Below are positions 14,548 through 47,062 of a DNA stretch of 64,000 bases, one piece after another. The stretch's first letter is position 1; every line of letters starts with the position of its first letter. The stretch is from Pseudoxanthomonas dokdonensis (GTDB lineage: Bacteria > Pseudomonadota > Gammaproteobacteria > Xanthomonadales > Xanthomonadaceae): NCBI RefSeq assembly GCF_001431405.1, contig NZ_LDJL01000009.1:124001-188000 (forward strand), written 5' to 3'. The position numbers and the translations under genes are program-made. Under the pieces are notes generated by a model. It was not told the origin of the DNA. It did not search any database and worked only from the letters and a program-made list of their open reading frames with translations.

Positions 14548-17500
14548 TTACCAGCCAAAGCCCAGGCCGATACCGGCGGACTGGTCATCGTTGGTGAACG
14601 CACCGCCGACCGTCAACGTTGCACGGTCGGAGAAGGCACGCTGGTAGCCCACCGACAGAGCCTGCTCGCTGCCCTGGAAGCCGACACCGACGGCGACGCG
14701 ATTGTCAGTGCGGATGCCGGCTGCACTGGCGGCCATGGTGGTCATGGCCGAGGTCATCGCGCCCAGGCCGTCAATCCGGCGGTCCTGGTCGTGGAAGCGG
14801 CGGTCAACATCACCCTGGAACTGGGTGAAGTCATCCTGCAGGGCATTGACCCGACCGTCGGTATACGCGTTGGCACTGGCCACGGCCTGTGCGGAAGCGT
14901 TGTCGGTGTAGGTCCTTTGCGCTGCACTCAGGGTGGCGGCATTGCCGGCCACTGGCGCCGCAGCCGCTACTTCAGGCTGATGCTCCGAAGCCAGCTGGCC
15001 CGGTGCCGCGGCGGTGCTGCGGCTGGCGCTGGTCTCCTCGGCAGCAATCGCCGGGCTGCTGGAAGACACCCGCGGGTTGTCACCGACGCTGTCGATGCGG
15101 TTGTCATTTTCGAACAGCTGCGTCAGCTTGGCATCGACCGCGGTGAAGGCGGCTCCCACGTTGCTGTAGCTGCGGCCCTGGATGACATAGCGCGGGGCGG
15201 TGAAGACACCGTTGGCGTAGCTGGCACCACCACCCAGTGCACTGGTCAGACGGCTCAGCTGCGACAGGTTGACGGCGTCAGTCAGCTGGGTGGCACCGGC
15301 CACGTTGGTGATCTGACGTTCGCTACCCAGGCTGCCGACCGAGACCGTGTTGGCCCGATCCGACAGGCTGCCCGCACCCAGGGCGACGCTGTTCTGCGCC
15401 TGGGCGTTGGCCTGGCTGCCGATGGCCACGGCATCGCTGCCGTCACCGAAGGCACCGCTGCCGATGGCGACCGTGTTGGCACCTGAGGCCTCGGTAATCG
15501 CGGCACCAGCCGCGGCGCCACCGATGGCGACACTGCCATCACCGCTGGCAACGGCATTGGCACCGCTGGCCACCGAGGCATCACCGCTGGCGACCGCGTC
15601 ATCGGTCCCGTCTTCCAGACCGGAGGCCTTGAAGTAGCGGGTGGCCTTGTCGACGTTGTCGCCACCTTCCTCGATCGCGGCCTGCAACTGACCGACATTG
15701 ACTGCATCGGTGTTTTCAGTACCCGCTGCGACATTGGTGATCTGCCGTTCGCTGCCGGTATCGCCCACCGAAACGGTGTTGTCACGCAAGGCGACCGAGT
15801 TGTTGCCCAGCGCCACCGAGTTGTCGGCCCGGGCGATGGCAAACGAACCCAGGGCCAGGCTGCTTTCGCCGTAGGCGCCACTGAGATAACCCAGCGCACT
15901 GCTTTCGGTACCGATTGCGCCAGCCAGATGGCCGACGGCAGTGGCGTTGTCCGCGGTGGCCTGGGCCGCGCCGCCGACAGCGGTGGCGAATGCACCGCTG
16001 GCGGTAGTCGACAGACCGCCGTCGTAGGAACCACCGACGGCTACCGCATTGAGGCCGCTGGCGGTGGCCTTGGTCCCGACAGCGGTAGCGCCTTCGAGGA
16101 ACGCTTTGGCATCACTGCCGACTACAGTGCTACCCGCGCCAGCAGCATTCGCAAGGTAACCGACCGCCAGGCTGTCACCACCGACGGCACGGCTGAGGCC
16201 ACCCAGGGCGGTGTCGCCGTTATTTCTCGCAGTGCTGAGGAAACCCAATGCCGAGCTTGCATTACCGGAGCTGGTTGTACCGCTGCCAACCGCAACCGAA
16301 GCAACGCCGCTTGCCGTGGAGGTTACCAAGCCACCCAGGGCGGCACCGCCGATGACGACGCTCTCGTTGCCGTTGGCGGTGGCGTTTTGACCGATCGCGA
16401 TGGCCTTGTTGCCGTTGGCCTGGGCATTGGCGCCATTGGCCACGCTGTGATTGCCAGCAGCGACCGAACCAGCGCCGGTAGCGGTGCTCATTTCACCCAG
16501 GGCAAAGGCATTGGCACCGGTGGCGGTGGCCTGGCTGCCGTCGGCCAGTGCACCGGAGCCGGAGGCGGTGGCCAGTTCGCCGGTCGCCTGCGCGTCATCG
16601 CTACCGTCATTGGCACCATCGGCGGCGAAGTAGGGGTTGGCTCCACCCGCGTCGATGCCTTCTACCGCTGCGGTCAGCTGATCGACGTTGACTGCGTCGG
16701 TACCCTCGGTGCCGGCGGCGACGTTGGTGATCTGGCGTTCATTGCCTATCGAACCCACCGACACCGTGTTGTCGCGGAGCGCCCGCGAACCTTCGCCCAG
16801 TGCCACGCTGTTGAAGCCGAGGACGGTGGCGAGTGAACCCAACGCGATGCTTCCGTTGGTCTGCACGAAGGTGCCACCACCAATGGCGATGGCGTCATTG
16901 GCAAACGACACGGCGTTGCCACCCACGGCGATGGAGTTGGTGCCACTTGCGCGGCTGAGACCACCGACGGCCACGCCCAGATCGCCGATGGCGCCTGCGC
17001 TGGTGCCAACGGCCACCGACGAGTGACCAAAGGTCGCGGCACCGTGGCCCAGTGCGGTGCTTTGCACGCCCGACGCTGCTGCACCATTGCCGAATGCCGA
17101 ACTGCTGGTACCGGTGGCCCGGGTCTGCAACGAGCCCAGGGTTGGCGTGGTCAGAGTACCGCCGACAGCGACACTTTCATCGCCGGTGGCCAGCGCCGCT
17201 TCACCCAGTGCGGTCGAGCTGGCACCGGAGGCTGAAGCGCCGTAGCCCAATGCAGAGGACAGTACGCCGGCGGCCGAACTGAATCCACCCACTGCCAGGG
17301 TACCGTTGTGCGCACTGTTGCTCCTGAAGCCCAGCGCCACACTCTGATCGCCCGAGGCCGAGGCCTGCGGACCGGTGGCGACACTGCGGTCACCGCTGGC
17401 GACCGAATTGAAGCCGGTGGCGACACTGGCATTGCCCAGCGCGAATGCACCGGAACCGGTGGCGGTGGAGTCATTGCCATCGGCCAGCGCGCCGGCACCG

Positions 17501-20500
17501 GAAGCGGTTGCCCGATCACCATTGGCAATCGCGTCATCGCTGCCGTCTTCCAGACCGGTGGCCTCGAAATAGCGGCTGGCGTCGTCAACATCGGCGGCGA
17601 CCGCATTCAACTGGTCGAGGTTGACCGCATCGGTGCCTTCGGTACCTGCGGCGACGTTGATGACCTGGCGTTCGCCGCCAATGCGACCGACCGAGACAGT
17701 GCGTTCACGGGTGGCGAGGGCGTCACCACCGAGCGCCACACTGTCATTGGCCTCGGCCACGGCGGCATTGCCCAGCGCGACCGAATTGAAACCGGTGGCG
17801 TTGGCAGCACCACCGACCGCGGTCGAGAAGTCACCGGAGGCAATCGTGTTGAGGCGGCCGACCAGCGCGCCACCGAGAGCGACACTGTTGCTGCCGCTGG
17901 CTTCGGAGAAGCTGCCGACCGAGGTCGAATCGCTGGCGATAGCGGTCGCGCCAAAGCCGACGGCAGTTGTCCGGTCGCTGTTGGCGGTGGCGCCGTAGCC
18001 CAGAGCCGAGCCGCCGAAGCCGGTGGCCTCGGTGTAGCTGCCGACGCTGGTCGAACCATCACCTTCGGCATTGCTGCGCCAGCCATTAGCTACCGATTGC
18101 ACGCCGGAGGCAGTGGCTTCCGGACCGGTAGCGGTGCTGAAGGCGCCGCTGGCAACCGCACCCGCGCCCGCAGCCACGGCCAGCTCACCACTGGCCACCG
18201 CATCATCGGAGCCGTCTTCCAGGCCGTTGGCCTTGAAGTAGCGGGTGGCGTTGTCGATCGCGTCCTGGCCATCGCTGATCGCGGTGTTCAACTGATCAAC
18301 ATTGACTGCGTCGGTGCCCTCGGTACCGGCGGCGACGTTGGCAATCTGCCGCTGGTTGTCGGCACTGCCGACCGAGACCGTGTTTTCGCGATCAGCGACC
18401 GAACCCGTGCCCAGCGCCACGCTGTTTTCGGCGCTGGCGGTGGAGCCGTAACCGATTGCCGAAGCGCCAATGGCGTTGGCCGTGCTCAGACCACCGACGG
18501 CCATCGAACCGGCGCTGTCGGCGTAGCTGTTGTAGCCCACTGCAGTGCTGTCCTGGCCATAGGCGGAAGCGCGATGACCGAAGGCCGAGCTGTTCTCGCC
18601 TTCGGCAATCGAGTAATAGCCGACCGAGGTGCTGCCGGTGCCGGTGGCAAATGCCTGGGCACCGTTGGCAGTGGACTGATCACCACTGGCCAGTGCGCCG
18701 GCACCTGATGCGGTGGCTACTTCGCCACTGGCGACCGCGTCGTCGCTGCCATCTTCCAGACCGCTGGCATCGAAATACGGGTTGGCTACAGCGGTATCGA
18801 TACCTTCGACGGCGGCGGTCAGCTGATCCAGATTGACCGCATCGGTACCTTCGGTGGCCGCGGCGACGTTGGTGATCTGGCGTTCGCTGCCGACATCACC
18901 GACCGACACGCTGTTGGCGCGTTCGGCGACCGAATCACTGCCCAGTGCCACCGAGTTGTCGGCATAGGCACTGGCCAGGTGGCCGAGCGCGGTGCTGTTC
19001 TCACCGCCGGCAAACGCACCACCACCGATCGCGACCGAATACTGTCCGGCGGCCTCGGTGGCAATCACGCCATCAAAGGCGCCACCCAGCGCGATCGAGT
19101 TGTCACCAGCGGCCAAGGCACCGGTACCTACGGCGGTGCTGTCGACCGCCGAGGCGTAGGCGTCAGCACCGACGGCCAGTGCATTTTCCTTGTCGGCCTT
19201 GCTGTTGCTGCCAAGGGCGTGGCTCTTGACCCCGTAGGCCTTGGCGTTCCTGCCCAGTGCGGTTGAGAGTTCTGCCGTAGCATCGGTGAAATGACCCAGT
19301 GCAGTGGCGTATTCGCCGGTGGCCCAGGCACCGTTGCCGACCGCGACGGTACCGAATTCAGTTGCCCGGGTGTTGACGATGCCATTGACCGAAGTGCCAC
19401 CGATGGAGGTGCTTTGCTCACCACTGGCCTGGGCATATTCACCGACCGCGGTAGCGGCTTCGGCCCCGGCGACCGCCGAGTTGCCGACCGCTGTGCTGTA
19501 GTCAGCATCGGCCTGGCTGTTATAGCCAAGGGCGGTACTGGCTTTGCCACTGGCGTTGGAATAGCCGCCGTAGCCGGCGGAGGCAATACCGGAAGCGCTG
19601 CTGCGGAAGCCGCTGGCAGTGGCTTGTTCGCCGAACGCACGGGAGTCACTGCCGATGGCGCTGGACCCCGAACCACCGGCAATCGCGCCGGCACCCATGG
19701 CGGTATCGGCGCGTTCACGGGCTACGGCATTGCTGCCGAAGGCGCTGGCGTCCTGTGCCTGGGCCTGCGCACCGGCACCGGTGGCGACGCTGTTGAGGCC
19801 GCTGGCAAGGGCATTGAAACCGGTCGCGGTGCTGGTTTCACCCAGTGCGAAGGCACCGGAACCATTGGCGGTGGCGCCGTAACCATCGGCCAGCGCGCTG
19901 GCGCCGGAGGCGGTCGCCAGTTCGCCGGTGGCGATGGCATCGTCGCTACCGTCTTCCAGCCCATTGGCCTTGAAGTAACGGGTGGCGTTGTCGACGTAGT
20001 CCTGGCCGTCGCTGACGGCGGTGTTCAGCTGGTCAACGTTGACCGCGTCGGTGCCTTCGCTACCGGCGGCGACATTGGTGATCTGGCGCTGATTGGATTC
20101 CGAACCCACCGAAACGGTGTTGTCGCGGAAGTTGCGCGAGCCATAACCCAGTGACACCGAGCCGATACCCTCGGCCTGTGCTTGGGCACCCAGTGCGGTG
20201 CTGTAGTCGCCATAGCCCGAGCTGAAGAAACCGATGCTGGTGCCATAGTCGCCAAAGCCGCTTGCGGAAGCGCCGACGGCGGTGCCACCAAAGCCTTCGG
20301 AACGGGCGCCGCCAAAATAGTTGCCGCCGATCGCGGTGCTGTAGTCGCCGACTGCGCTGGCTAATATGCCCATCGCCACGCCGCCCTCGCCACCGGCATA
20401 GGCCAGGGTACCGAACGCGCTGCTATCGACACCTTGGGCTTCGCTGTAATAGCCGACTGCGGTGCCGGAATCACCGCTGGCGACCGCACGCGGGCCAACC

Positions 20501-22446
20501 GCGGTGGAAATGAAGCCGGTGGCGCGGCTTTCAAAGCCGACCGCGACCGCCGAATTGTGCAGTGCCTGTGCATCCATGCCGATGGCTACCGCGGCATTGC
20601 CGTCGGACTGGGCGCCAGCGCCCATCGCAACACCGCCCAGATAGTTGACGTTGGCGCTGGAGCCAATGGCGATGCTGTCGGTGGCCTGCGCATGGGTGGC
20701 GACCGGCGGCAGCGGCTCGCCGTAGGCATCGTTGTCGCGGATGCCGCCAATGGCAATCGAACCATCGCCGCTGGCCTGCGCGCCGGCACCGGTGGCAACA
20801 CTGTGGTTGCCGGCGGCGACCGAGCCGAACCCGCTGGCGGTGCTGGTATCACCCAGTGCGAACGCACCGGAACCGGTGGCGGTGGCCGCGTAGCCATCGG
20901 CCAGCGAACCCGAGCCCGCAGCGGTCGCCAGTTCGCCACTGGCGATGGCGTCATCGCTGCCGTCTTCCAGACCGTCGGCCTTGAAGTAGCGGGTGGCGTT
21001 GTCGACGTAGTCCTGGCCGTCGCTGACGGCAGTGTTCAGTTGATCGACATTGACCGCGTCGGTGCCTTCGCTACCGGCGGCGACATTGGTGATTTGACGC
21101 TGGTTGAGTTCCGAGCCCACCGATACGCTGTTGGCGCGATCGGCCAATGAGTCGTTGCCGAGGGCGACGCTGCTTTCGGCTTCGGCGGCGGCGCCGTTAC
21201 CTACGGCGACCGTGCCGTAAGCGCTGGCCAGCGCGCCACCGCCAACGGCGGTGGAGTAGTCACCGGAGGCTTCGGTGGCAACCACGCCGAACAGGGCACC
21301 GCCAACGGCCACGCTGTTTTCGCCACTGGCATTGGCCTGGCTGCCGAGGGCAGTAGCATCGTTGTTGCTGGCGCTGGCGCCGTAGCCAACCGCGGTGCCG
21401 GCAAAACCGGATGCGTCGCTGTAACCGCCGACGCTGGTGGCGGCATCACCGGAGGCATTGGCGCCGGCACCGGAGGCCACCGATGCCAGACCGCTGGCGA
21501 CGGCATCGTCGCTATCGTCTTCCAGTCCTTCAGCCTTGAAGTAACGGGTGGCGTTGTCGACGTAGTCCTGGCCATCGCTGATGGCGGTGTTCAGTTGATC
21601 CACATTGACCGCGTCGGTGCCTTCGCTACCGGCGGCAACGTTGGTCAGCTGGCGTTCGTTGCCGGCACTGCCGACACTGACCGTGTTGGCGCGATTGGCC
21701 ACCGAACCGCTGCCCAGCGCCACGGCGTTATCGGCACTGGCGTTGCTGTTGTAGCCAATCGCGGTGGCGGCGGCGCCATCGGCGATGGCATCGTTGCCGA
21801 ACGCGGCGGCCTGGTCACCGGCAGCGGCGCTGTTGGCGCCGACGGCCAGTGCTTCCTCACCCGAGGCTTCGCTGCGGGCACCGATGGCAGTGCTGTCATC
21901 ACCGGCGGCGGTGGCTTCATGGCCGAATGCGGCGGCGCGTTCGCCGCTGGCCTGGCTGTAGCTGCCGACGGCGCTGGCGTCTTCGTTGCTGGCTTCGCTC
22001 TGGTAACCGACGGCGGTGGCCTGCTCGCCACTGGCCTGCGCGTAAGCGCCGATCGCGCTGGCGCCATTCTCACTGGCTTCGGCGCGATAGCCGGCGGCGA
22101 CGGCGTTGCGACCCGAGGCACTGGCCGAACGGCCGCAGGTCACGCTGTTGGTGCCCTGTTCGGCATCAATGATGGGGTTGCCTTCGGCGTCAACGCAGAA
22201 GGTACCGCTGGCATTGGTGGTGGCCTTGGTCACTGTCGCCGCGGCCAGGCTGAAATCATGTGCCGCTGCCGGCATGGCCAGGGTAAAGCCAAGGATGGCG
22301 GTGGCCAGCGCGCTCATCACCAGGCCACCGCGACGGCCGACGTTGCCATTGCCGCTGGCCAGGCCATGCGATTGCTTGGCGAATTCGGAAGCTACCACCA
22401 GCATGCCCAGTGATTGGTTCCAAACCTTGCTGTAGATCTTGTTCAT
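14548..22446 (-). CDS. Giant trimeric autotransporter adhesin (YadA-like, type Vc)
   Basis: 2632-residue surface adhesin expected to form a trimer in the outer membrane. The N-terminus MNKIYSKVWNQSLGMLVVASE is an extended signal peptide region, and a hydrophobic core ends near AMPAAAHDF (about residue 62). The passenger is made of YadA-head-type 14-residue repeats (patterns such as AxGxxSxAxG) interrupted by eight neck modules of the form RQITNVAAGTEGTDAVNVDQL, each followed by a connector YFKAxGLEDGSDDA. Ninth-neck DNA lies near 15.3 kb; the others lie near 15.7, 16.7, 17.7, 18.3, 18.9, 20.1, 21.1 and 21.6 kb. A coiled-coil stalk leads to the C-terminal YadA anchor, which ends in GIGLGFGW. 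Two cysteines near the mature N-terminus (FCVDAEG, VTCGRS) could pair. The ribosome-binding site AAGGAA precedes the ATG. Ligand unknown. Confidence 0.95.
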   Translation of the reverse strand: MNKIYSKVWNQSLGMLVVASEFAKQSHGLASGNGNVGRRGGLVMSALATAILGFTLAMPAAAHDFSLAAATVTKATTNASGTFCVDAEGNPIIDAEQGTNSVTCGRSASASGRNAVAAGYRAEASENGASAIGAYAQASGEQATAVGYQSEASNEDASAVGSYSQASGERAAAFGHEATAAGDDSTAIGARSEASGEEALAVGANSAAAGDQAAAFGNDAIADGAAATAIGYNSNASADNAVALGSGSVANRANTVSVGSAGNERQLTNVAAGSEGTDAVNVDQLNTAISDGQDYVDNATRYFKAEGLEDDSDDAVASGLASVASGAGANASGDAATSVGGYSDASGFAGTAVGYGASASNNDATALGSQANASGENSVAVGGALFGVVATEASGDYSTAVGGGALASAYGTVAVGNGAAAEAESSVALGNDSLADRANSVSVGSELNQRQITNVAAGSEGTDAVNVDQLNTAVSDGQDYVDNATRYFKADGLEDGSDDAIASGELATAAGSGSLADGYAATATGSGAFALGDTSTASGFGSVAAGNHSVATGAGAQASGDGSIAIGGIRDNDAYGEPLPPVATHAQATDSIAIGSSANVNYLGGVAMGAGAQSDGNAAVAIGMDAQALHNSAVAVGFESRATGFISTAVGPRAVASGDSGTAVGYYSEAQGVDSSAFGTLAYAGGEGGVAMGILASAVGDYSTAIGGNYFGGARSEGFGGTAVGASASGFGDYGTSIGFFSSGYGDYSTALGAQAQAEGIGSVSLGYGSRNFRDNTVSVGSESNQRQITNVAAGSEGTDAVNVDQLNTAVSDGQDYVDNATRYFKANGLEDGSDDAIATGELATASGASALADGYGATANGSGAFALGETSTATGFNALASGLNSVATGAGAQAQAQDASAFGSNAVARERADTAMGAGAIAGGSGSSAIGSDSRAFGEQATASGFRSSASGIASAGYGGYSNASGKASTALGYNSQADADYSTAVGNSAVAGAEAATAVGEYAQASGEQSTSIGGTSVNGIVNTRATEFGTVAVGNGAWATGEYATALGHFTDATAELSTALGRNAKAYGVKSHALGSNSKADKENALAVGADAYASAVDSTAVGTGALAAGDNSIALGGAFDGVIATEAAGQYSVAIGGGAFAGGENSTALGHLASAYADNSVALGSDSVAERANSVSVGDVGSERQITNVAAATEGTDAVNLDQLTAAVEGIDTAVANPYFDASGLEDGSDDAVASGEVATASGAGALASGDQSTANGAQAFATGTGSTSVGYYSIAEGENSSAFGHRASAYGQDSTAVGYNSYADSAGSMAVGGLSTANAIGASAIGYGSTASAENSVALGTGSVADRENTVSVGSADNQRQIANVAAGTEGTDAVNVDQLNTAISDGQDAIDNATRYFKANGLEDGSDDAVASGELAVAAGAGAVASGAFSTATGPEATASGVQSVANGWRSNAEGDGSTSVGSYTEATGFGGSALGYGATANSDRTTAVGFGATAIASDSTSVGSFSEASGSNSVALGGALVGRLNTIASGDFSTAVGGAANATGFNSVALGNAAVAEANDSVALGGDALATRERTVSVGRIGGERQVINVAAGTEGTDAVNLDQLNAVAADVDDASRYFEATGLEDGSDDAIANGDRATASGAGALADGNDSTATGSGAFALGNASVATGFNSVASGDRSVATGPQASASGDQSVALGFRSNSAHNGTLAVGGFSSAAGVLSSALGYGASASGASSTALGEAALATGDESVAVGGTLTTPTLGSLQTRATGTSSSAFGNGAAASGVQSTALGHGAATFGHSSVAVGTSAGAIGDLGVAVGGLSRASGTNSIAVGGNAVSFANDAIAIGGGTFVQTNGSIALGSLATVLGFNSVALGEGSRALRDNTVSVGSIGNERQITNVAAGTEGTDAVNVDQLTAAVEGIDAGGANPYFAADGANDGSDDAQATGELATASGSGALADGSQATATGANAFALGEMSTATGAGSVAAGNHSVANGANAQANGNKAIAIGQNATANGNESVVIGGAALGGLVTSTASGVASVAVGSGTTSSGNASSALGFLSTARNNGDTALGGLSRAVGGDSLAVGYLANAAGAGSTVVGSDAKAFLEGATAVGTKATASGLNAVAVGGSYDGGLSTTASGAFATAVGGAAQATADNATAVGHLAGAIGTESSALGYLSGAYGESSLALGSFAIARADNSVALGNNSVALRDNTVSVGDTGSERQITNVAAGTENTDAVNVGQLQAAIEEGGDNVDKATRYFKASGLEDGTDDAVASGDASVASGANAVASGDGSVAIGGAAAGAAITEASGANTVAIGSGAFGDGSDAVAIGSQANAQAQNSVALGAGSLSDRANTVSVGSLGSERQITNVAGATQLTDAVNLSQLSRLTSALGGGASYANGVFTAPRYVIQGRSYSNVGAAFTAVDAKLTQLFENDNRIDSVGDNPRVSSSSPAIAAEETSASRSTAAAPGQLASEHQPEVAAAAPVAGNAATLSAAQRTYTDNASAQAVASANAYTDGRVNALQDDFTQFQGDVDRRFHDQDRRIDGLGAMTSAMTTMAASAAGIRTDNRVAVGVGFQGSEQALSVGYQRAFSDRATLTVGGAFTNDDQSAGIGLGFGW

Positions 22447-39295: not shown

Positions 39296-39309
39296 TGTTA
39301 GCGCTACCA
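39296..39309. promoter_or_regulatory. LacI-family operator, xyl-box type
   Basis: TGTTAGCGCTACCA on the plus strand; its reverse complement is TGGTAGCGCTAACA, identical to the xyl-box consensus I recall for the XylR (LacI-family) xylan regulon of Xanthomonas. The core AGCGCT is a perfect palindrome. It lies just downstream of the candidate -10 (GATAACT, about 39274-39280), where a bound repressor would block transcription of the receptor. The matching regulator is not in this window. Confidence 0.6.
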
Positions 39310-39335
39310 AAATGACGCCGGAATGGCATCGAAGG

Positions 39336-39347
39336 TTGCAATTGCAA
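39336..39347. promoter_or_regulatory. 12-bp perfect palindrome TTGCAATTGCAA in the receptor leader
   Basis: Perfect dyad 27 bp downstream of the xyl-box-like operator and 282 bp upstream of the receptor ATG. It could be a second regulator site. A chance occurrence is possible, though an A/T-rich dyad stands out in this high-GC sequence. Confidence 0.3.
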
Positions 39348-39629
39348 GCAGGTCCGACGCTGTTTTTTTGCAGCGGCGTCGGCACGGCAGCAGCGCTCGG
39401 GCGGGAACCGCGGATACGGCCATCGTATCCACCCGCGCTGATCGCCGTGGTCCGTCGGGGGCCCCTTGGGGAGGGGTGATCAATCAATCGAGCAAGGGGT
39501 GGGATCGATGACAGGCTGCAACGCCAGAAGCGGGACAGGTTTGAAGATCGAAGTGCGGGAGGGTGTCGCTCGGCATGACCGGGCCGGCATGACTTTGGCT
39601 GTTCAAATTCCAGGGCAAAGGACACGTTC

Positions 39630-42600
39630 ATGAATCACAAGTTGAAGCGTTTCAAGTCAAAAGCGATGTTCACCATCGTCGGTGGTGTGATCATCATCAA
39701 TCCCGCCTTCGCCCAGGATGCGCAGCCGCAGCAGGTGCCGCAGGCGCAGCAGACGCAGGCCCAATCGACCGATGACGCGACCACGCTGGATACGGTCACG
39801 GTGACCGGCCTGCGCAGCAGTCTGGATCAGGCCATGAACATCAAGCGCGATGCCGCCGGCGTGGTCGATGCGATCAGCGCCGAGGACATCGGCAAGTTCC
39901 CGGATACCAACCTGGCCGAGTCGCTGCAGCGCATCACCGGTATCTCGATCGAACGCCGCGACGGCGAAGGCGCGCAGGTCACCGCGCGTGGCTTCGGTCC
40001 GCAGTTCAACATGGTCACCCTCAACGGGCGGCAGATTCCGGGTGCGGATGCCTTTGGCGCGGCCGGCCAGGTCGCCATCGGCGGCGTCGATGGTGGTACG
40101 CGCGCGTTCAACTTCCAACAGCTCGCGTCCGAAGCCATCAGCGGACTGGAGGTCTACAAGACCAGCCAGGCCAACGTGCCCAGCGGCGGCATCGGCGCCA
40201 CCATCAACGTGTTGACCGACCGTCCGTTCAACCACAGCGGCGTGGTCGCCAGTGCCGGTGCCAAGGTGGTGTCGGATCAGTCGGAGCTGTTCGACAACGA
40301 TCTGACCCCGGAAGTGTCGGGCATTTTCAGCTACACCAACCCTGACAAGACCTTTGGCGTGGGCTTGAGTGCCAGCTACCAGAAGCGCCACGGCGGCTCG
40401 GTGCAGGCCACCGAGAACTACTGGAACGTGCAGCCGTGGACCGGGACCATGCCCGGCAACCCGAACGTGGTCAATGCGCCGGGTGTCGGTGATCTGTACG
40501 CGCGACCGAACGATCTGCGTTACGCATTCGCTGATTTCGAGCGCGAGCGCATCAATGGCCAGGCGGTGCTGCAGTTCGCGCCGATCGACAGCCTGACCCT
40601 GACCCTGGACTACACCTACTCGACCAACGAGATCGAAGAGAACCGTGGCGAACAGGCCATGTGGTTGCAGAACAGCAACTACACCGATGTCGAGTTCGAC
40701 ACCAGCGGTGCCGTGGCAACCCCGATCTACATCCGCGAAATCGCCGGCACCAAGGACTTCGGTCTTGAGCAGCAGCGCAGCATGCAGAAGTACAAGCTGG
40801 GCTCGCTGGGCTTCAATGCGCAGTGGGCGGTCAGCGACAACTTCAACCTGAGCTTCGATGCGCACAACTCCAAGAACGAGAGCCTGCCGAACGATCCGCT
40901 GACCGGTGGTGGCTCGATCTTCATGAGCATCGCCGGCACCAACAACTGCACCGTTGGCCCGCACTGTGGCGGCTCCTGGGTGCAGGAAATGTGGTTCAAC
41001 AACAGCCTGCCAGTGGGTTCGCAGACCTGGTACCCGAGCACCGCCGATGCGGCGGCCGGCACCAATGGCGTGACCAACCCGGGCTTTGTCGAAGGCGAAA
41101 TCGGCTCGCAGGTGCTGCGTGTCAATGCGCAGACCCAGATCAGCGAGGTCAAGGAAGCACGCGTGGACGGCGAATGGCTGTTCGATGCCGGCCGTTTCCA
41201 GTTCGGTGCCGACACCAGCAAGTCGACCACCCATCGCACCCAGGCCGCCGAAGCCTACTCGACGCTGGGTGACTGGGGCGTGGCCAACGTCGATTCGGAC
41301 ACCGCCAACGGCTTGATGGACCTGCTGCATCCGATCGATATCGTCGGCCTGTTCGACGACTACAGCCTGGCCAGCAACAACGGTGCCTGGACCGGCGATA
41401 CCGGCGCCCTGACCCAATGGGCGGCCGACAACTACGGCGTTGGCATCGGGGTTAGCCCGCAGCGCTCGGCCGACAACCGGGTCGAGGAGAAGACCAACTC
41501 GGTGTACATGCAACTGCAACTGGAAGGCGAGTGGGGCAGCATGATGACCCACACCCGGGTCGGCCTGCGTTACGAAACCACTGACGTGGTCTCGACCTCG
41601 GTCATCGCCGTTCCCGAGGCGATCGAATGGCAGGCCAACAACGACTTCCGCATCGTGTTGTCCGATGAGCAGCAGCCCTTCAGCGAGAAGGCCAGCTACA
41701 GCTATATCCTGCCCAACATCGACTTCGACATCGACCTGACCGAGTCGTTGAAGGCACGCGCCTCGTTGGGCAAGTCCATCGCCCGTGCGCCGTTTGGCAA
41801 CCTGTATGCCGGCCCCGGCGCGCAGCAGCCATTCGGTTCGGTGCTGATCGACCCGTCCAGCCGCGCCAGCGGCAGCGCCCAGAACCCGGCGTTGAAGCCG
41901 CTGGAATCGGACAACTTCGACATGGCGCTGGAGTGGTACTTCGCCGATGCCAGCTATATCTCGGTGACGTTCTGGGACAAGAAGGTCAACAACTTCATCG
42001 GCAACACCGTCGGCCAGGAATCGCTGTATGGCCTGACCGATCCGACCTCCGGACCGGACGCGCAGGCGGCACTGGACTTCCTCACCAGTGCAGCCTGTAC
42101 CGCCCAGGTCGCGGCGGCCGATGCGGCGGCGTGTTCGGCCAACGACACCTCGTTGTTCACCGCGCTGGCGCTGTTGCGCAACGACCCAGCCGGCCTGGCG
42201 GCGTTCGATGGCACCGGCGCCCAGCAACTGGCGACCGAAGCCGCGTACAACGTCTATGGCGAAGCCGATGACCCGCTGTACATGTTCAACGTCAACCGGC
42301 CGGTCAACCAGAACGACGCCAAGCTGCATGGCTGGGAACTGGGTGGCCAGTACTTCTTCGGCAGCAGCGGCTTTGGCATCTACGCCAACTACACCATCGT
42401 CGATGGCGACATCGGCTATGACAACGGCGGCGATCCGAACCTGGACCAGTTCGCCCTGCAGGGCCTGAGCGATACCGCCAACTTCATGCTGATGTACGAA
42501 AACTACGGCTGGTCGGCCCGCCTGGCCTGGAACTGGCGTGACGAGTACCTGATCCTGGCCAACCAGGGTTCCAGCCGCAATCCGTACTACGTCGAGGACT

Positions 42601-42776
42601 ACGACCAGTTCGACCTCAGCGTCAGCTACACCTGGGATGACCGCTGGTCGGTGGGCCTGGAAGCCATCAACCTGACCGGTGAGGACGTGCGCTGGCACGC
42701 CCGTACCTCCGAGCAGATGATGAAGCTGGTGGATCAGAGCCCGCGCTACATGCTGGGGGTCCGTTACAAGTTCTGA
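39630..42776 (+). CDS. TonB-dependent receptor, Xanthomonas/Caulobacter class
   Basis: Outer-membrane active transporter of 1048 residues. The signal peptide ends NPAFAQ (about residue 29), a Gln-rich stretch follows, then the TonB box DTVTVTG (54-60). The plug is recognisable from ISAEDIGKFPDTNLAESLQRITGISIERR and TARGFGPQFNMVTLNGRQIPG. The large beta-barrel ends in GVRYKF with a terminal aromatic residue, as required for Bam insertion. This subclass is associated with uptake of plant- or algal-derived sugars and related compounds in Xanthomonas and Caulobacter. The upstream operator supports carbohydrate-linked control. A strong terminator follows, before the SapC gene. Confidence 0.93.
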   Translation: MNHKLKRFKSKAMFTIVGGVIIINPAFAQDAQPQQVPQAQQTQAQSTDDATTLDTVTVTGLRSSLDQAMNIKRDAAGVVDAISAEDIGKFPDTNLAESLQRITGISIERRDGEGAQVTARGFGPQFNMVTLNGRQIPGADAFGAAGQVAIGGVDGGTRAFNFQQLASEAISGLEVYKTSQANVPSGGIGATINVLTDRPFNHSGVVASAGAKVVSDQSELFDNDLTPEVSGIFSYTNPDKTFGVGLSASYQKRHGGSVQATENYWNVQPWTGTMPGNPNVVNAPGVGDLYARPNDLRYAFADFERERINGQAVLQFAPIDSLTLTLDYTYSTNEIEENRGEQAMWLQNSNYTDVEFDTSGAVATPIYIREIAGTKDFGLEQQRSMQKYKLGSLGFNAQWAVSDNFNLSFDAHNSKNESLPNDPLTGGGSIFMSIAGTNNCTVGPHCGGSWVQEMWFNNSLPVGSQTWYPSTADAAAGTNGVTNPGFVEGEIGSQVLRVNAQTQISEVKEARVDGEWLFDAGRFQFGADTSKSTTHRTQAAEAYSTLGDWGVANVDSDTANGLMDLLHPIDIVGLFDDYSLASNNGAWTGDTGALTQWAADNYGVGIGVSPQRSADNRVEEKTNSVYMQLQLEGEWGSMMTHTRVGLRYETTDVVSTSVIAVPEAIEWQANNDFRIVLSDEQQPFSEKASYSYILPNIDFDIDLTESLKARASLGKSIARAPFGNLYAGPGAQQPFGSVLIDPSSRASGSAQNPALKPLESDNFDMALEWYFADASYISVTFWDKKVNNFIGNTVGQESLYGLTDPTSGPDAQAALDFLTSAACTAQVAAADAAACSANDTSLFTALALLRNDPAGLAAFDGTGAQQLATEAAYNVYGEADDPLYMFNVNRPVNQNDAKLHGWELGGQYFFGSSGFGIYANYTIVDGDIGYDNGGDPNLDQFALQGLSDTANFMLMYENYGWSARLAWNWRDEYLILANQGSSRNPYYVEDYDQFDLSVSYTWDDRWSVGLEAINLTGEDVRWHARTSEQMMKLVDQSPRYMLGVRYKF

Positions 42777-42813
42777 ACCCTGCGATGTTCCTCCCCGGAA
42801 GTCGCTTCAGGGC

Positions 42814-42845
42814 GGGACCGCTGCGCAAGCAGCGGTCCCTTTCTT
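42814..42845 (+). terminator. Intrinsic terminator between TonB receptor and SapC gene
   Basis: An 11-bp perfect stem GGGACCGCTGC / GCAGCGGTCCC with a GCAA tetraloop, then TTTCTT, 37 bases after the receptor stop. It should end most receptor transcripts. The downstream operon therefore depends on read-through or its own promoter; a TATAGA at 42952-42957 is a weak -10 candidate. Confidence 0.85.
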
Positions 42846-42983
42846 CATCTGCCGGTCGCTATTGCGGGAACGCTTGCCGGCCGCGGGTTTTTCTGCAAAT
42901 GTCACTTTGTTGCCGAAACATGGCGCTGCCGTGCGCCGCTGCCGGTGACGGTATAGACACCCTCGAATTTACTGACGCTGCCC

Positions 42984-43748
42984 ATGGCCCGATACGAACT
43001 CCTCAACAACGTCGCGCACAAGGATCTGCGCGTCATCACCCGGTTTGGACACGAGCTGGGCGACCAGTTGGCGGTACTGCCGGCGTTTCCCAGCGAATAC
43101 GCGGAACTGCAGCGCGAATACCCGATCTTCCTGCGCAGGCATCGCGACAGCGGTGAATGGCAGTCGGTGGCCCTGCTGGGTTTCGAACGCGACGAGAACC
43201 TGTTCCTGCAGGGAGACCGCTGGAATGCCAGCTACTTGCCCGGCGCGGTGGCCAAGGGGCCGTTCCTGATTGGCTTCCAGGAGCAGCAGGTCGATGGCGA
43301 GCTGCGCCAGGAGCCCGTGATCCATGTCGATCTGGATCATCCGCGGGCCAGTTTCAGTGAAGGCGAAGCGGTGTTCACCGCGCAGGGCGGCCACAGCGCC
43401 TACCTGCAACATGTGATCAGCGTGCTGCGCGGCATCCGCGACGGCACCGAGATGACCCAGCCGATGCTGGCGGCACTGGATGCGTGCGGGCTGATCCAGC
43501 CATTCGCGATTGACGTGCAGTTGGATGAAACCCATCGGGTCAACGTCGGCGGGCTGTATGGCATCGACCGTGACAAGCTGGCGGCCCTGGATGCGCAGGC
43601 ATTGCACCAGCTGCACCAGGCCGGCTATCTGGAAGGTGTGTACCTGATGCTGGCCTCGATGCACAACGTGCGCCGGTTGATGGCGGAAAAGCAACGCAGG
43701 TTGCGACAGCAACAGGCGATCGCCGACACCGCGGAGCAGGCGCCCTGA
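42984..43748 (+). CDS. SapC family protein
   Basis: 254-residue soluble protein of the SapC family, named after a Campylobacter S-layer-locus protein; its biochemical role is not established. The family pattern is visible: YPIFLRRHRDSGEWQSVALLGFERDENLFL, RWNASYLPGAVAKGPFLIGF, and a C-terminal LDETHRVNVGGLYGIDRDKLAALD. No signal peptide or TM, so it is probably cytoplasmic. In Xanthomonas, Caulobacter and Alteromonadales SapC genes recur beside TonB receptors and halogenase-like genes, as here. The next gene begins within about 30 bases. Confidence 0.85.
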   Translation: MARYELLNNVAHKDLRVITRFGHELGDQLAVLPAFPSEYAELQREYPIFLRRHRDSGEWQSVALLGFERDENLFLQGDRWNASYLPGAVAKGPFLIGFQEQQVDGELRQEPVIHVDLDHPRASFSEGEAVFTAQGGHSAYLQHVISVLRGIRDGTEMTQPMLAALDACGLIQPFAIDVQLDETHRVNVGGLYGIDRDKLAALDAQALHQLHQAGYLEGVYLMLASMHNVRRLMAEKQRRLRQQQAIADTAEQAP

Positions 43749-43774
43749 ATCCGGCCCTGCCGACGCCGGCAGCG

Positions 43775-44776
43775 GTGCGCGAGCTGCCAGGCTGCCAGCC
43801 CGGCGTGCTGCCTTGGTCCCAGTTGCAGACGGCCACGCAGCCGTTGCTGTTGAAGGGCGTGGCCCGGCAGTGGGGGCTGGTCGAGGCCGGCCTGCGCGGC
43901 AGCGACGACGCCATGGCCTATCTGCGTGGGCATGATGCAGGCCGGCCGGTGCTGTATTCGCACGGCCCTGCCGCCATCAATGGCCGGCCGTTCTACAACG
44001 ATGACTTCACCGCGCTCAACTGCCAGGTGGAGCGCAGCAGCCTGGACCGGCTGTTGGAGCGGATCCACGCGCACATGCAGGATGCGTCGCCGCCGACGTT
44101 CTATCTGGCCTCGATGCTGGTCGAGCCCAATCTGCGTGGATTTGTCGAGGACAATCCGCTCGACTTCGCCAGCGCCGGGGTCAACGCACCGCCGAGCATC
44201 TGGATTGGCAACCGGGTGACCGCGTCCTGTCATTACGACGCACCCAACAACATCGCCGTGTGCGCGGTCGGGCAGCGCCGCTTCACCCTGTTTCCGCCGG
44301 ATCAGATCAGTCATCTGTACCCGGGACCGCTGGCCCCGACACCGGGCGGGCAGGTGGTCAGCGTGGTCGATTTCGAACATCCGGACCTGCAGCGCTATCC
44401 GCGCTTCGCCCAGGCCTGGGCGCAGGCACAGAGCGTGGTGCTGGAACCGGGCGACGCGATCTACATCCCCAGCATGTGGTGGCATCACGTGCAGGGCCTG
44501 GCGCCGTTCAACGTGCTGGTCAATTACTGGTGGAACAGCATGCCGGCATACGTGCCGACGCCAATGCACGCGCTGTACCACGCGCTGTGGAGCATCCGTG
44601 ATCGGCCCGAGCCCGAGAAGCAGGCCTGGCGCGAGGTTTTCGAGCACTACGTGTTCGGTCCGGCCGAACGCGCCGGCGAGCATCTGCCGGAGGCCGCACG
44701 TCATGTACTGGGACCGATCGATGAAACCCTGGCACGCCAGCTTCGATCGATGCTGATCGACAAACTCAACCGCTGA
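43775..44776 (+). CDS. JmjC/cupin-8-type putative Fe(II)/2-oxoglutarate oxygenase
   Basis: 333-residue cupin-like protein. The JmjC metal site is visible as H153-x-D155 (SCHYDAPNNIAVCAVGQRRF) and a distal His at 237 or 238 (SMWWHHVQGL), on the double-stranded beta-helix ordered as in FIH/JMJD5-type hydroxylases. The start is a GTG at 43775, the first conventional initiator in the frame; the frame also stays open upstream to overlap the SapC stop, so a non-standard start there is possible. Such enzymes hydroxylate proteins or small molecules. Substrate unknown. Confidence 0.82.
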   Translation: MRELPGCQPGVLPWSQLQTATQPLLLKGVARQWGLVEAGLRGSDDAMAYLRGHDAGRPVLYSHGPAAINGRPFYNDDFTALNCQVERSSLDRLLERIHAHMQDASPPTFYLASMLVEPNLRGFVEDNPLDFASAGVNAPPSIWIGNRVTASCHYDAPNNIAVCAVGQRRFTLFPPDQISHLYPGPLAPTPGGQVVSVVDFEHPDLQRYPRFAQAWAQAQSVVLEPGDAIYIPSMWWHHVQGLAPFNVLVNYWWNSMPAYVPTPMHALYHALWSIRDRPEPEKQAWREVFEHYVFGPAERAGEHLPEAARHVLGPIDETLARQLRSMLIDKLNR

Positions 44777-44802
44777 CAACACGCAGAACGGGGAACACAG
44801 AC

Positions 44803-46335
44803 GTGGCCAATGGTCGGATACGCAAAGTAGTGATTGCCGGTGGCGGTACCGCCGGGTGGCTGGCCGCCACCGCGTTGTCGCACCAGTTCCGTGACCTGCT
44901 CGAGATCACCCTGGTCGAGTCCGAGCAGATCGGCACGGTCGGCGTCGGTGAATCGACGGTGCCGCCGATCCGGACCTTCCATCGCTTCCTGCAGATCGAT
45001 GAGCAGGAGTTCCTGCGTGCGGTCGCCGGCACCTTCAAGCTGTCGATTTCGTTCGAGAACTGGCGCCGCCCCGGCGAGCGCTACATCCATCCGTTCGGCA
45101 TCACCGGGCAAAGCACGCGCGCCTGCGGCTTCCATCATTTCTGGCTCGACAGCGTGCGCCGCGGGATGGCCTCGGAACTGGGCGATTTCTGCCTGGAAAC
45201 CCTGGCTTCGCGCGAGGACCGGTTCACCCTGTCCAGCCAGCCGCAGGTCAACTACGCCTATCATTTCGATGCCGGCCTGTACGCGCGGTTCCTGCGCGGC
45301 ATCGCCGAAGGTTATGGATTGAAGCGGGTGGAGGGCAAAATCCGCGAAGTCCGCCAGGATCCGCAGGATGGTTTCGTGCAGGCGCTGGTGCTGGAAGACG
45401 GCCAGGTGCTGGAAGGAGATCTGTTCATCGACTGCACCGGCTTCCGCGGCCTGCTGATCGAGCAGACCCTGCAAAGCGGTTACGAGGACTGGCATCAGTG
45501 GCTGCCCAGTGACCGCGCGGTCGCGGTGCAGACCGAGTCGGTCGGCCCGCCGGTGCCGTACACGCGCGCCATCGCCCACGAAGCCGGCTGGCGCTGGCAC
45601 ATCGCATTGCAGGACCGGGTCGGCTGCGGCTGGGTTTATTCCAGCCGTCACATGTCCGATGACGAAGCGACCCAGAAGCTGCTGGACGCGGTCGGTGCGC
45701 GCCCGATCCGGGAACCATGGCGGGTACCGTTCCGCAGCGGCCGTCGATTGAAGGCCTGGAACAAGAATGTGGTCTCGCTGGGTCTGGCCAGTGGTTTCAT
45801 CGAGCCGCTGGAATCGACCAGCATCCATCTCAGCATGTCGGCGGTGATGCGCCTGGTGCAGTTGTTCCCGTTAGATGGCATTCCGCAGTCACTGGTCGGC
45901 GTCTACAACGAGGTTGGCCGCGCCGAGATGGAACACGTACGCGATTTCATCATCCTGCATTACCACGCCAACCAGCGCGACGAACCGATGTGGCGTGAAT
46001 GCCGCGACATGCAGCTGCCGCCATCGCTGCAGATACGCCTGGACGCGTGGCGTGAGCGCGCGCACGCCTGGCAGGGCGCGGACGAACTGTTCCGGGTAGA
46101 CTCCTGGACCCACGTGATGCTGGGGCAGGGCATCATGCCCAGCCAGCATCACCCGTTGGCGCGTGCTCTGTCGGATCAGGACATGCAGCGGCTGCTGCAC
46201 TCGATCCAGCAACCGATGCGCCAGGCGGTGCAGCAGATGCCGACGCAGCAGGCCTTCATCGACAGTTACTGCAGATCTGATCCGCGGGTCTGGGCAACGC
46301 TGTCGCCGGTCACGCCGCAGGCAACGCCTGCCTGA
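44803..46335 (+). CDS. Flavin-dependent tryptophan halogenase family protein
   Basis: 510-residue FAD-dependent halogenase homologue starting at GTG 44803. The FAD fingerprint GGGTAGW is at 13-19 and VGVGESTVPP at 47-56. Lys79 (TFKLSISFENW) aligns with the catalytic lysine of PrnA, and Glu337 (FIEPLESTSIHL) with its catalytic glutamate. The WxWxIP motif reads WRWHIA at 263-268: the final Pro is Ala, a change from the signature that blocks monooxygenase-type turnover. No flavin reductase is encoded nearby. The name reflects family only; the true substrate may be another aromatic molecule or a peptide. Confidence 0.88.
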   Translation: MANGRIRKVVIAGGGTAGWLAATALSHQFRDLLEITLVESEQIGTVGVGESTVPPIRTFHRFLQIDEQEFLRAVAGTFKLSISFENWRRPGERYIHPFGITGQSTRACGFHHFWLDSVRRGMASELGDFCLETLASREDRFTLSSQPQVNYAYHFDAGLYARFLRGIAEGYGLKRVEGKIREVRQDPQDGFVQALVLEDGQVLEGDLFIDCTGFRGLLIEQTLQSGYEDWHQWLPSDRAVAVQTESVGPPVPYTRAIAHEAGWRWHIALQDRVGCGWVYSSRHMSDDEATQKLLDAVGARPIREPWRVPFRSGRRLKAWNKNVVSLGLASGFIEPLESTSIHLSMSAVMRLVQLFPLDGIPQSLVGVYNEVGRAEMEHVRDFIILHYHANQRDEPMWRECRDMQLPPSLQIRLDAWRERAHAWQGADELFRVDSWTHVMLGQGIMPSQHHPLARALSDQDMQRLLHSIQQPMRQAVQQMPTQQAFIDSYCRSDPRVWATLSPVTPQATPA

Positions 46336-46369
46336 TTGGCATCGTTAATTTCCAAGGTAGTTCGCGTCC

Positions 46370-47062
46370 ATGCTGGTCACCCATCCCGACATCCAGATCC
46401 GCGCCCAGCTGTTGGGCGCCGAACGCGCGCCGCTGCTGATCATCGACAACGTGGTCGCCGACCCCGGGCGGCTGGTACGCAAGGCCTCGCACCATGGTTT
46501 CAGCAGGCAGGGGGCGATGTTTCCCGGGGTCCGCGCGCAGGCGCCGTTTTCCTATCGGGAGTTCCTGCAGACCCTGCTGCAGCCATTGCTGCAGCCGTAT
46601 TTCGGGCTGGAGGCCGGACGCTTCGAGTTCCCGATGTGTCATTACTCGCTGGTGACGACGCCGCCGTCGCAGTTGAAGTTCCTGCAGAAGGTGCCGCACA
46701 TAGATTCGACCGACGGCAGCGGCCTGGCCACCGTCCATTATCTGTTCGATGGCTGGGGCGGTACCGCGTTCTACCGGCATCGGCAGACCGGTTTCGAATA
46801 CATCGATGAAGCGCGCGGACGTCCGTACTTCCAGTGCCTGGAGCAGCAGAGCCATCAGCCCGATGCCACCGGCGAAGGCTACATCAACGGTGACAGCGCC
46901 CTGTTCGAGCAGATCGCGCGGGTCGATGGCGTGTTCAACCGGATGCTGGTGTACCGGCGCAATTCACTGCATTCGGGCTGCATCGACAACCGCCAGGTGC
47001 CGACAGCCGACCCGCTGGCGGGCCGGCTGTCGATCAACAGCTTCATCGATGTAGTGCGCTGA
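46370..47062 (+). CDS. DUF6445-like protein with 2OG-oxygenase residue pattern
   Basis: 230-residue protein, last of the receptor-associated group. It resembles the DUF6445 family found beside halogenase-like genes. Residues H110 and D112 (VPHIDSTDGSG), H201 (NSLHSG) and R219 (GRLSINSF) follow the HxD...H...R order of Fe(II)/2-oxoglutarate dioxygenases, with Gly-rich LFDGWGGTAFY in the expected intervening strand. By this reading it is a second putative oxygenase. No signal peptide. It starts 34 bases after the halogenase stop with AAGGTAG upstream. Convergent with ettA. Confidence 0.75.
   Translation: MLVTHPDIQIRAQLLGAERAPLLIIDNVVADPGRLVRKASHHGFSRQGAMFPGVRAQAPFSYREFLQTLLQPLLQPYFGLEAGRFEFPMCHYSLVTTPPSQLKFLQKVPHIDSTDGSGLATVHYLFDGWGGTAFYRHRQTGFEYIDEARGRPYFQCLEQQSHQPDATGEGYINGDSALFEQIARVDGVFNRMLVYRRNSLHSGCIDNRQVPTADPLAGRLSINSFIDVVR

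Follow-up and report, generated by a model that had tools for sequence, protein, structure and literature searches.

In Xanthomonas, TonB-dependent receptors for carbohydrates are encoded in loci where the receptor gene lies near genes for a glycoside hydrolase, a LacI-type regulator and a sugar transporter; the words halogenase, SapC and cupin do not occur in the text of PMC1790865. The flavin-dependent halogenases BrvH and Xcc4156 have been studied as isolated enzymes: both were purified and crystallised, BrvH halogenates free indole (PMC5945002), and Xcc4156 is active on indole and its derivatives and has an open active site that might accept larger substrates, possibly peptides (PMC7336383). 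The natural substrate is not settled in these two papers, whose texts contain neither of the words TonB and receptor; nor, in the BrvH paper, does SapC occur. FIH, in turn, is a protein hydroxylase and oxygen sensor that acts on a regulator, and its definition includes the residues His199, Asp201 and His279 (PMC6488082). Here we describe a five-gene set in a 64,000-nucleotide stretch of the Pseudoxanthomonas dokdonensis genome (contig NZ_LDJL01000009.1, positions 124,001 to 188,000, forward strand; 'the window' below), in which, unlike in the Xanthomonas loci of PMC1790865, as many as four additional genes go with a single clade of TonB receptors. We consider it very probable that they form a receptor-dedicated accessory module of sugar uptake.

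The component families are known; neither the set nor its receptor clade appears to have been described in the literature covered. No paper pairing SapC with a tryptophan halogenase was found there, most subscription papers lying outside that literature, and none naming DUF6445 was found in it. Comparative-genomics notes reportedly place such genes beside sugar receptors in Shewanella; the text of PMC2996990 contains none of the words halogenase, SapC, cupin or PASS1.

Results

The gene set and its link to one receptor clade

The five genes of the set are all on one strand, and each product has a strong match to its family:

39630..42776, + strand: TonB-dependent receptor of the TIGR01782 (TonB-Xanth-Caul) class, 1048 aa; TIGR01782 763 bits, plug and barrel
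42984..43748, + strand: SapC (PF07277), 254 aa; 227.5 bits, possible adaptor
43775..44776, + strand: Cupin_8 (PF13621), a JmjC-type, FIH-like putative Fe(II)/2-oxoglutarate (2OG) oxygenase, 333 aa; 224.9 bits
44803..46335, + strand: flavin-dependent halogenase homologue of the HalB type, Trp_halogenase PF04820, 510 aa; 636.6 bits
46370..47062, + strand: DUF6445 (PF20043), 230 aa, probable second Fe(II)/2OG oxygenase and optional member; 256.3 bits

The receptor lies well over the TIGR01782 cut-off of 310 bits. The gene order given by a first-pass annotation of the window (receptor, SapC, JmjC/cupin protein, flavin halogenase, DUF6445) was borne out by open reading frames and family matches, with the correction that the receptor gene starts at 39630 and not at 39296. 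Only 26, 26 and 34 bp separate the four downstream genes from one another, and 207 bp separate the receptor from SapC. By eye, no signal peptide was seen in any of the four downstream proteins, which are therefore probably cytosolic; three of them resemble oxidising or halogenating enzymes.

Gammaproteobacteria and alphaproteobacteria alike carry these genes in the order receptor-(HalA)-SapC-Cupin_8-Hal-(DUF6445), where HalB denotes the halogenase downstream of Cupin_8 and HalA a halogenase immediately following the receptor or preceding SapC. Among the hosts are Xanthomonas, Stenotrophomonas, Luteimonas, Steroidobacter, Microbulbifer, Rheinheimera, Sphingomonas, Caulobacter, Asticcacaulis and Hyphomonas, and the genome studied here has a second set on contig C12, ordered receptor-HalA-SapC-Cupin_8-HalB. 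Within the host's family, 44 of 119 genomes have SapC, as do 104 of 299 across the phylum; DUF6445 is present in 56 of the 119, a count that includes a weak and apparently distinct group near 50 bits. The family holds 71 places with SapC, of which 69 were read (two in genome G064 were left out): a receptor stands upstream on the same strand in 59, 50 of them found by a strict script, held to that count by overlapping stop-to-stop frames, and nine more read by eye from the loci, while ten have none. For set-type Cupin_8, a receptor lies upstream in 78 of 80 loci, these being the best 80 of 585 confirmed loci and so biased to near relatives; the remaining two (L202, L221) start near a contig edge.

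The association also holds in the reverse direction. Starting from the receptor, SapC follows directly, on its strand and within 2.6 kb, at 51 of 52 places in the 119 family genomes, among the near relatives recovered at E<=1e-150 with at most six candidates scored per genome. In a tree of 78 receptors, a single fork (SH-aLRT 100) of 53 rows takes in all 47 full-set representatives. Its remaining six rows are L101, L102_12163, L241 and L202, with a partial set downstream as called; L029_14384, where the stretch ends after SapC; and L102_15241, a tandem receptor. Of the host's nine other full-length TIGR01782 receptors, the eight included in the tree (the one on contig C21 was left out) are all outside the fork. 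Over 96 loci, receptor, SapC, Cupin_8 and HalB show pairwise distances that correlate with one another (r 0.81-0.875), as expected if the unit was inherited together.

The set often lies near genes for sugar utilisation

For a comparison of surroundings, the full-set loci were deduplicated from 139 to 103 at 90% receptor identity, and loci with an orphan SapC, having no adjacent receptor, were reduced from 46 to 43 by dropping three in which a receptor was present. Neighbouring genes were clustered and the cluster representatives named with Pfam and NCBIfam. The families named were GH3, GH43, GH67, LacI regulators, sugar porters, MFS_2 transporters and glucokinase, together with xylose isomerase (TIGR02630) and xylulokinase (TIGR01312), both over cut-off. 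The six glycoside hydrolase types probed occur in 50/103 full-set loci versus 0/43 orphan-SapC loci (p 2.8e-10), LacI in 27/103 versus 0/43, and any of the 13 sugar probes in 56/103 versus 1/43. In their surroundings, these 56 loci resemble the Xanthomonas carbohydrate loci.

The nearest neighbours scanned of the set in the window are a nicotinate phosphoribosyltransferase, an RNase Z-like protein and EttA; the Pfam and NCBIfam scan of neighbours gave no sugar gene adjoining the set, and no glycoside hydrolase, sugar transporter or sugar regulator lies beside the receptor. The only xylose isomerase gene of the host is on another contig (C5). The first-pass annotation had noted the absence of hydrolase, peptide synthetase, flavin reductase and export genes; none indeed adjoins the set in the window, but hydrolases and sugar transporters are often near the set in relatives.

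Among the 15 window-type relatives laid out, clusters of xylulokinase and xylose isomerase adjoin the set in 11 (L018, L019, L031, L035, L039, L043, L081, L180, L197, L206 and L208), these names coming from NCBIfam in L018 and from cluster membership in the others. The other four (L016, L032, L058, L062) have other sugar genes, and all 15 are carbohydrate loci by their gene clusters. HalA-bearing sets show a different sugar context, with glucokinase and GH3 in L045, L049 and L055 and LacI in two of these; no glucokinase, GH3 or LacI gene was seen at the host's own HalA set (L003). The sugar therefore differs between loci while the module stays, and a constant module beside a changing sugar suggests the receptor as the substrate. 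Most likely the module serves oligosaccharide uptake, with xylo-oligosaccharides as the ligand in the window's subclade.

Halogenase genes are not confined to the set and are seen in other sugar loci as well. Elsewhere in the same genome, a mannoside-type locus (L161; contig C30:128000-147900, 8401-19892, - strand) holds a TIGR01782 receptor that, at 809 bits, scores higher than any other in the genome. The locus also has two GH92 genes, genes for a LacI regulator and a PfkB kinase, and another full-length halogenase homologue, with no SapC, Cupin_8 or DUF6445 in that stretch.

Orphan SapC genes were seen at L024, L038, L040, L044, L047, L048, L053, L078-L080 and 31 of L084-L123; their most frequent neighbour cluster is found in only 7 of the 43 loci compared.

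Conserved active sites in the downstream proteins

By sequence, the halogenase homologue is a member of the flavin-dependent tryptophan-halogenase type: it scores 636.6 bits against a Pfam Trp_halogenase cut-off of 21. Its closest named solved relatives, from the same Pfam family, are Xcc4156 (6y1w, 4.8e-163) and BrvH (6frl, 5.1e-135), with the unnamed 9luq (1.6e-157) between them. Lys79 and Glu337, which the first-pass annotation had found kept in the window, are invariant in all 142 HalB and all 25 HalA proteins, and 16 of 18 other halogenase homologues in the loci keep Lys79, with 16 likewise keeping Glu337. We take these to be the catalytic Lys and Glu by analogy with PrnA and, like the first-pass annotation, Glu337 to be the equivalent of PrnA Glu346. 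The glycines of the FAD motif GGGxxG are present in 138 of 142 HalB proteins, the other four being gapped there; WxWxI is present in all 142 and is followed by Pro in 110 and by Ala in 27, including the window's protein, WxWxIP presumably being the flavin halogenase motif. There is weak NCBIfam similarity to the flavin-dependent monooxygenase QhpG and the lysine-epsilon-oxidase maturase LodB, far below the respective cut-offs (24.5 of 240 and 21.6 of 400 bits).

The nearest solved relatives of the Cupin_8 protein are FIH and JMJD5, the latter a protein hydroxylase by its PDB name (arginyl-hydroxylase). All 150 Cupin_8 proteins have the HxD...H site proposed earlier, as H153, D155 and H237, which correspond to the iron ligands His199, Asp201 and His279 of FIH. 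Gln193, aligned with the FIH Gln239 that binds the target Asn, is equally invariant (150/150), Tyr110, the equivalent of FIH Tyr145, is kept in 149/150, and the position of FIH Lys214 is occupied by Arg (R168) in 150/150. The profile match to FIH is about 100 bits.

DUF6445 is a probable Fe(II)/2OG oxygenase, judged from its HxD...H...R residues, as such an enzyme needs. The pattern H110xD112...H201...R219, already pointed out in the window, holds in 36 of 36 proteins from loci with a Cupin_8 gene (a further count gave 19/19); among 14 from other loci, the three metal ligands are kept in 13 and the Arg in all 14. Conservation of the metal and Lys/Glu residues across relatives, on which the first-pass annotation had made its joint-system idea depend, thus held for Cupin_8, halogenase and DUF6445, and the view of the genes as one receptor-linked unit with conserved active sites is supported.

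A second DUF6445 group (L064-L075, L082, L083) was noticed, in which 13 of the 14 proteins from outside Cupin_8 loci have Leu/Pro in place of His123/His137. Several of these loci combine a halogenase, GH97 or alpha-amylase and another TonB receptor with no SapC, and are probably maltodextrin loci.

The AlphaFold2 (AF2) model of SapC is of high confidence (pLDDT 96.6). Foldseek gave no PDB match for it at E<=1e-3, and VIA-align 2, run among Foldseek's own top chains, reached a best Z of 2.1; an absent match is no proof of a new fold.

A loop and residue signature in the receptor

The receptor model (pLDDT 83.6, pTM 0.81) has TonB-type receptors as all of the 50 fold matches listed. Two segments of the receptor were singled out with its help and that of an alignment of 137 set and 31 other receptors, from which two short set receptors and nine whose gene calls were uncertain or incomplete had been left out:

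41607..41669, + strand: receptor residues 660-680, predicted tip of a long hairpin, with the codons of Trp667 (41628-41630) and Asn671 (41640-41642)
42039..42275, + strand: receptor residues 804-882, predicted helical insert in a loop, typical of full-set receptors

The loop between window residues 789 and 892 is 71-112 residues long in full-set receptors versus 19-46 in 21 receptors that lie outside the clade and have no set genes. It measures 26-27 residues in three halogenase-only receptors, 41-58 in three that have Hal and SapC without Cupin_8, and 55 in the L102 tandem receptor, which is inside the clade. Helices are predicted at residues 809-872, with pLDDT blocks of 79-93. Trp667 is present in 137/137 full-set receptors and in 0/22 receptors without set genes downstream, and Asn671 in 134/137; both are placed by the model at the tip of the long hairpin 638-702. 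The long-loop versus short-turn topology of the model suggests that this tip and the loop with the helical insert face the cell exterior.

A stem-loop after the receptor gene

One further element lies in the gap between receptor and SapC:

42814..42839, + strand: perfect 11-bp stem-loop with a T-rich tail, 3' of the receptor stop codon; hairpin scan, with compensatory changes in relatives

A stem of nine pairs or more was found within 100 nt downstream of the receptor in 91/103 full-set loci, compared with 71/268 tandem gaps, 124/275 gene ends and 12/55 places after Hal. Across 12 aligned loci, six of the 11 pairs are altered on both sides, and 99.2% of the stem cells pair, versus 91.1% in shuffles and at most 71.0% when the stem is slid. 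A T-rich tail accompanies 34 of the 91 stem-loops. We read the element as a leaky terminator or a 3' stabiliser that would keep the receptor message high and the enzyme message low. Terminator-like matches overall numbered 8 versus 5.5 expected (s.d. 2.3), and a promoter scan gave one site against 1.0 expected. The stem-loop is not special to the set, because set-less receptors often carry one too (20/31).

A side observation is that such a stem-loop may be a general way of keeping receptor mRNA high in receptors of this class, with or without the set. Elsewhere in the window, an open reading frame of 2632 codons lies at 14548-22446 on the - strand.

Discussion

The first-pass annotation had proposed that the set modifies either the receptor or a peptide or aromatic part of its ligand. 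The second half of this proposal found no support, as the readable neighbours are genes of sugar utilisation and the sugar changes while the set is constant; the first half is the reading that we prefer, if tentatively and at somewhat less than even probability. Modification of the receptor is preferred because the oxygenase is of a protein-acting type, the halogenase is possibly capable of accepting peptides, the partner is constant and the ligand varies. The four downstream proteins would act on the receptor chain in the cytoplasm, ahead of Sec export. The FIH-like Cupin_8 protein would hydroxylate a receptor residue, most simply an Asn; the flavin halogenase would brominate, chlorinate or oxidise an aromatic side chain, Trp being the simplest candidate; DUF6445 would add an optional second hydroxylation; and SapC would hold or present the unfolded receptor. 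The modified residues would end in surface loops, there to bind sugar or keep the receptor stable, and the stem-loop between receptor and SapC would provide many receptors and few catalytic helpers. We infer the basis of this scheme throughout: the cytosolic location, the activity of the enzymes, the receptor as substrate, the residues modified and the role of SapC. The fuller version, in which the module hydroxylates and halogenates a large clade of sugar-importing TonB receptors in the cytoplasm, before their export, with Trp667 and Asn671 on surface loops as candidate sites, is a possibility to which we give about one chance in three.

A number of observations weigh against these readings. 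In the stretch read, none of the 13 main sugar probes matches in the window's locus or in 46 other full-set loci (47/103 in all). SapC stands without a receptor in 31 of the 40 loci first picked from the phylum search, picks that were mainly the best-scoring SapC of each family and so favour the orphan type; of 12 later picks, six are in the orphan list. The idea that the downstream genes occur mostly with a receptor therefore stands for set-type Cupin_8 (among the best 80 of 585) and for SapC of the host's family, but not for SapC as a whole family. One receptor relative (G060:C4) has no SapC. Enzymes in the cytosol would need access to the receptor before its export, and we know of no precedent for this among TonB receptors. 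Asn671 is replaced by Thr in 3 of 137 loci that do carry Cupin_8. Trp667 is kept in full-set receptors without a downstream halogenase (L213, L234, L240, L257) and is missing from two of the three halogenase-only receptors (L161, L078; the third, L246_391, has an aligned Trp); in L102, a locus with HalA and SapC, Phe takes its place. Several further residues (A814, P461, E620, W345, D376) are just as conspicuous, common descent of the clade confounds the loop and residue signatures, and a plain role in sugar binding could explain Trp667 and Asn671. We therefore rejected Trp667 as a proven target of the halogenase, whose presence it does not track, and retain it as a candidate. As for the oxygenase, the FIH Arg238 position is Gly in 150/150 Cupin_8 proteins, and FIH Thr196 has no equivalent but falls in an alignment insertion, the ungapped position being Ala, Ile or Val in 149/150. 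Fewer than the two of three 2OG residues (Tyr145, Thr196, Lys214) asked of FIH are thus present, and the profile match is below the 200-bit rule; by these criteria, as given in PMC6488082, the Cupin_8 protein is FIH-like and not FIH, though it may work like FIH.

Other explanations of the same set deserve to be weighed. The enzymes might act on the ligand, halogenating or hydroxylating a peptide or aromatic portion of it, or on a small molecule resembling a siderophore. Flavin halogenases do classically act on small aromatics, among them BrvH and Xcc4156 on indole or its derivatives (PMC5945002, PMC7336383), and the loci without a sugar probe, nearly half of the total, leave nothing from which to read the ligand. 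Yet the loci that can be read are sugar loci, and the named clusters contain no biosynthetic or export gene linked to the set, so we regard this explanation as unlikely; tailoring by a biosynthetic cluster was rejected as the best reading on these grounds and that of the varying sugar context. About equally improbable is that the substrate is a small peptide encoded near the set, in the manner of a ribosomally synthesised and post-translationally modified peptide (RiPP), which the receptor re-imports or signals with. The mix of enzymes is reminiscent of RiPP tailoring, and the sub-cutoff matches to QhpG and LodB are to maturation flavoproteins of other enzymes. However, no precursor gene turned up, though not all small open reading frames were screened, the receptor-SapC gap is only 11-13 bp in some loci and mostly holds the stem-loop, and neither a peptidase nor an exporter belongs to the set.

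Alternatively, the oxygenases and the flavoenzyme might be sensors that read oxygen, 2OG, halide or reduced flavin and change expression, for instance by modifying a LacI-type regulator, with the result that receptor synthesis would follow the metabolic state. FIH offers a parallel, being itself an oxygen sensor that acts on a regulator (PMC6488082), and LacI is present in 27 of the 103 loci; but the single LacI probe found none in the other 76 and it is the receptor, rather than a regulator, with which the set is tightly partnered, which leaves sensing with a low probability. We are likewise doubtful that the set is at bottom a dedicated chaperone complex for a long, loop-rich receptor, with catalysis secondary. 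The large insertions of full-set receptors would suit such a complex, as would a confidently modelled SapC with no Foldseek PDB match and no enzyme signature seen; the metal, 2OG, Lys79 and Glu337 residues are nonetheless essentially invariant, which argues for selection on catalysis.

Should receptor modification prove false, the genomic link would still point to sugar uptake as the phenotype. The link of the halogenase to one receptor clade gives it a concrete and testable substrate candidate. If the preferred reading of receptor modification is true, an outer-membrane protein would be halogenated, FIH-type protein hydroxylation would have a prokaryotic counterpart, and SapC and DUF6445 would gain a first role. 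Oxidative and halogen chemistry would then have a part in the making of the outer-membrane transporters with which bacteria feed on plant and algal polysaccharides.

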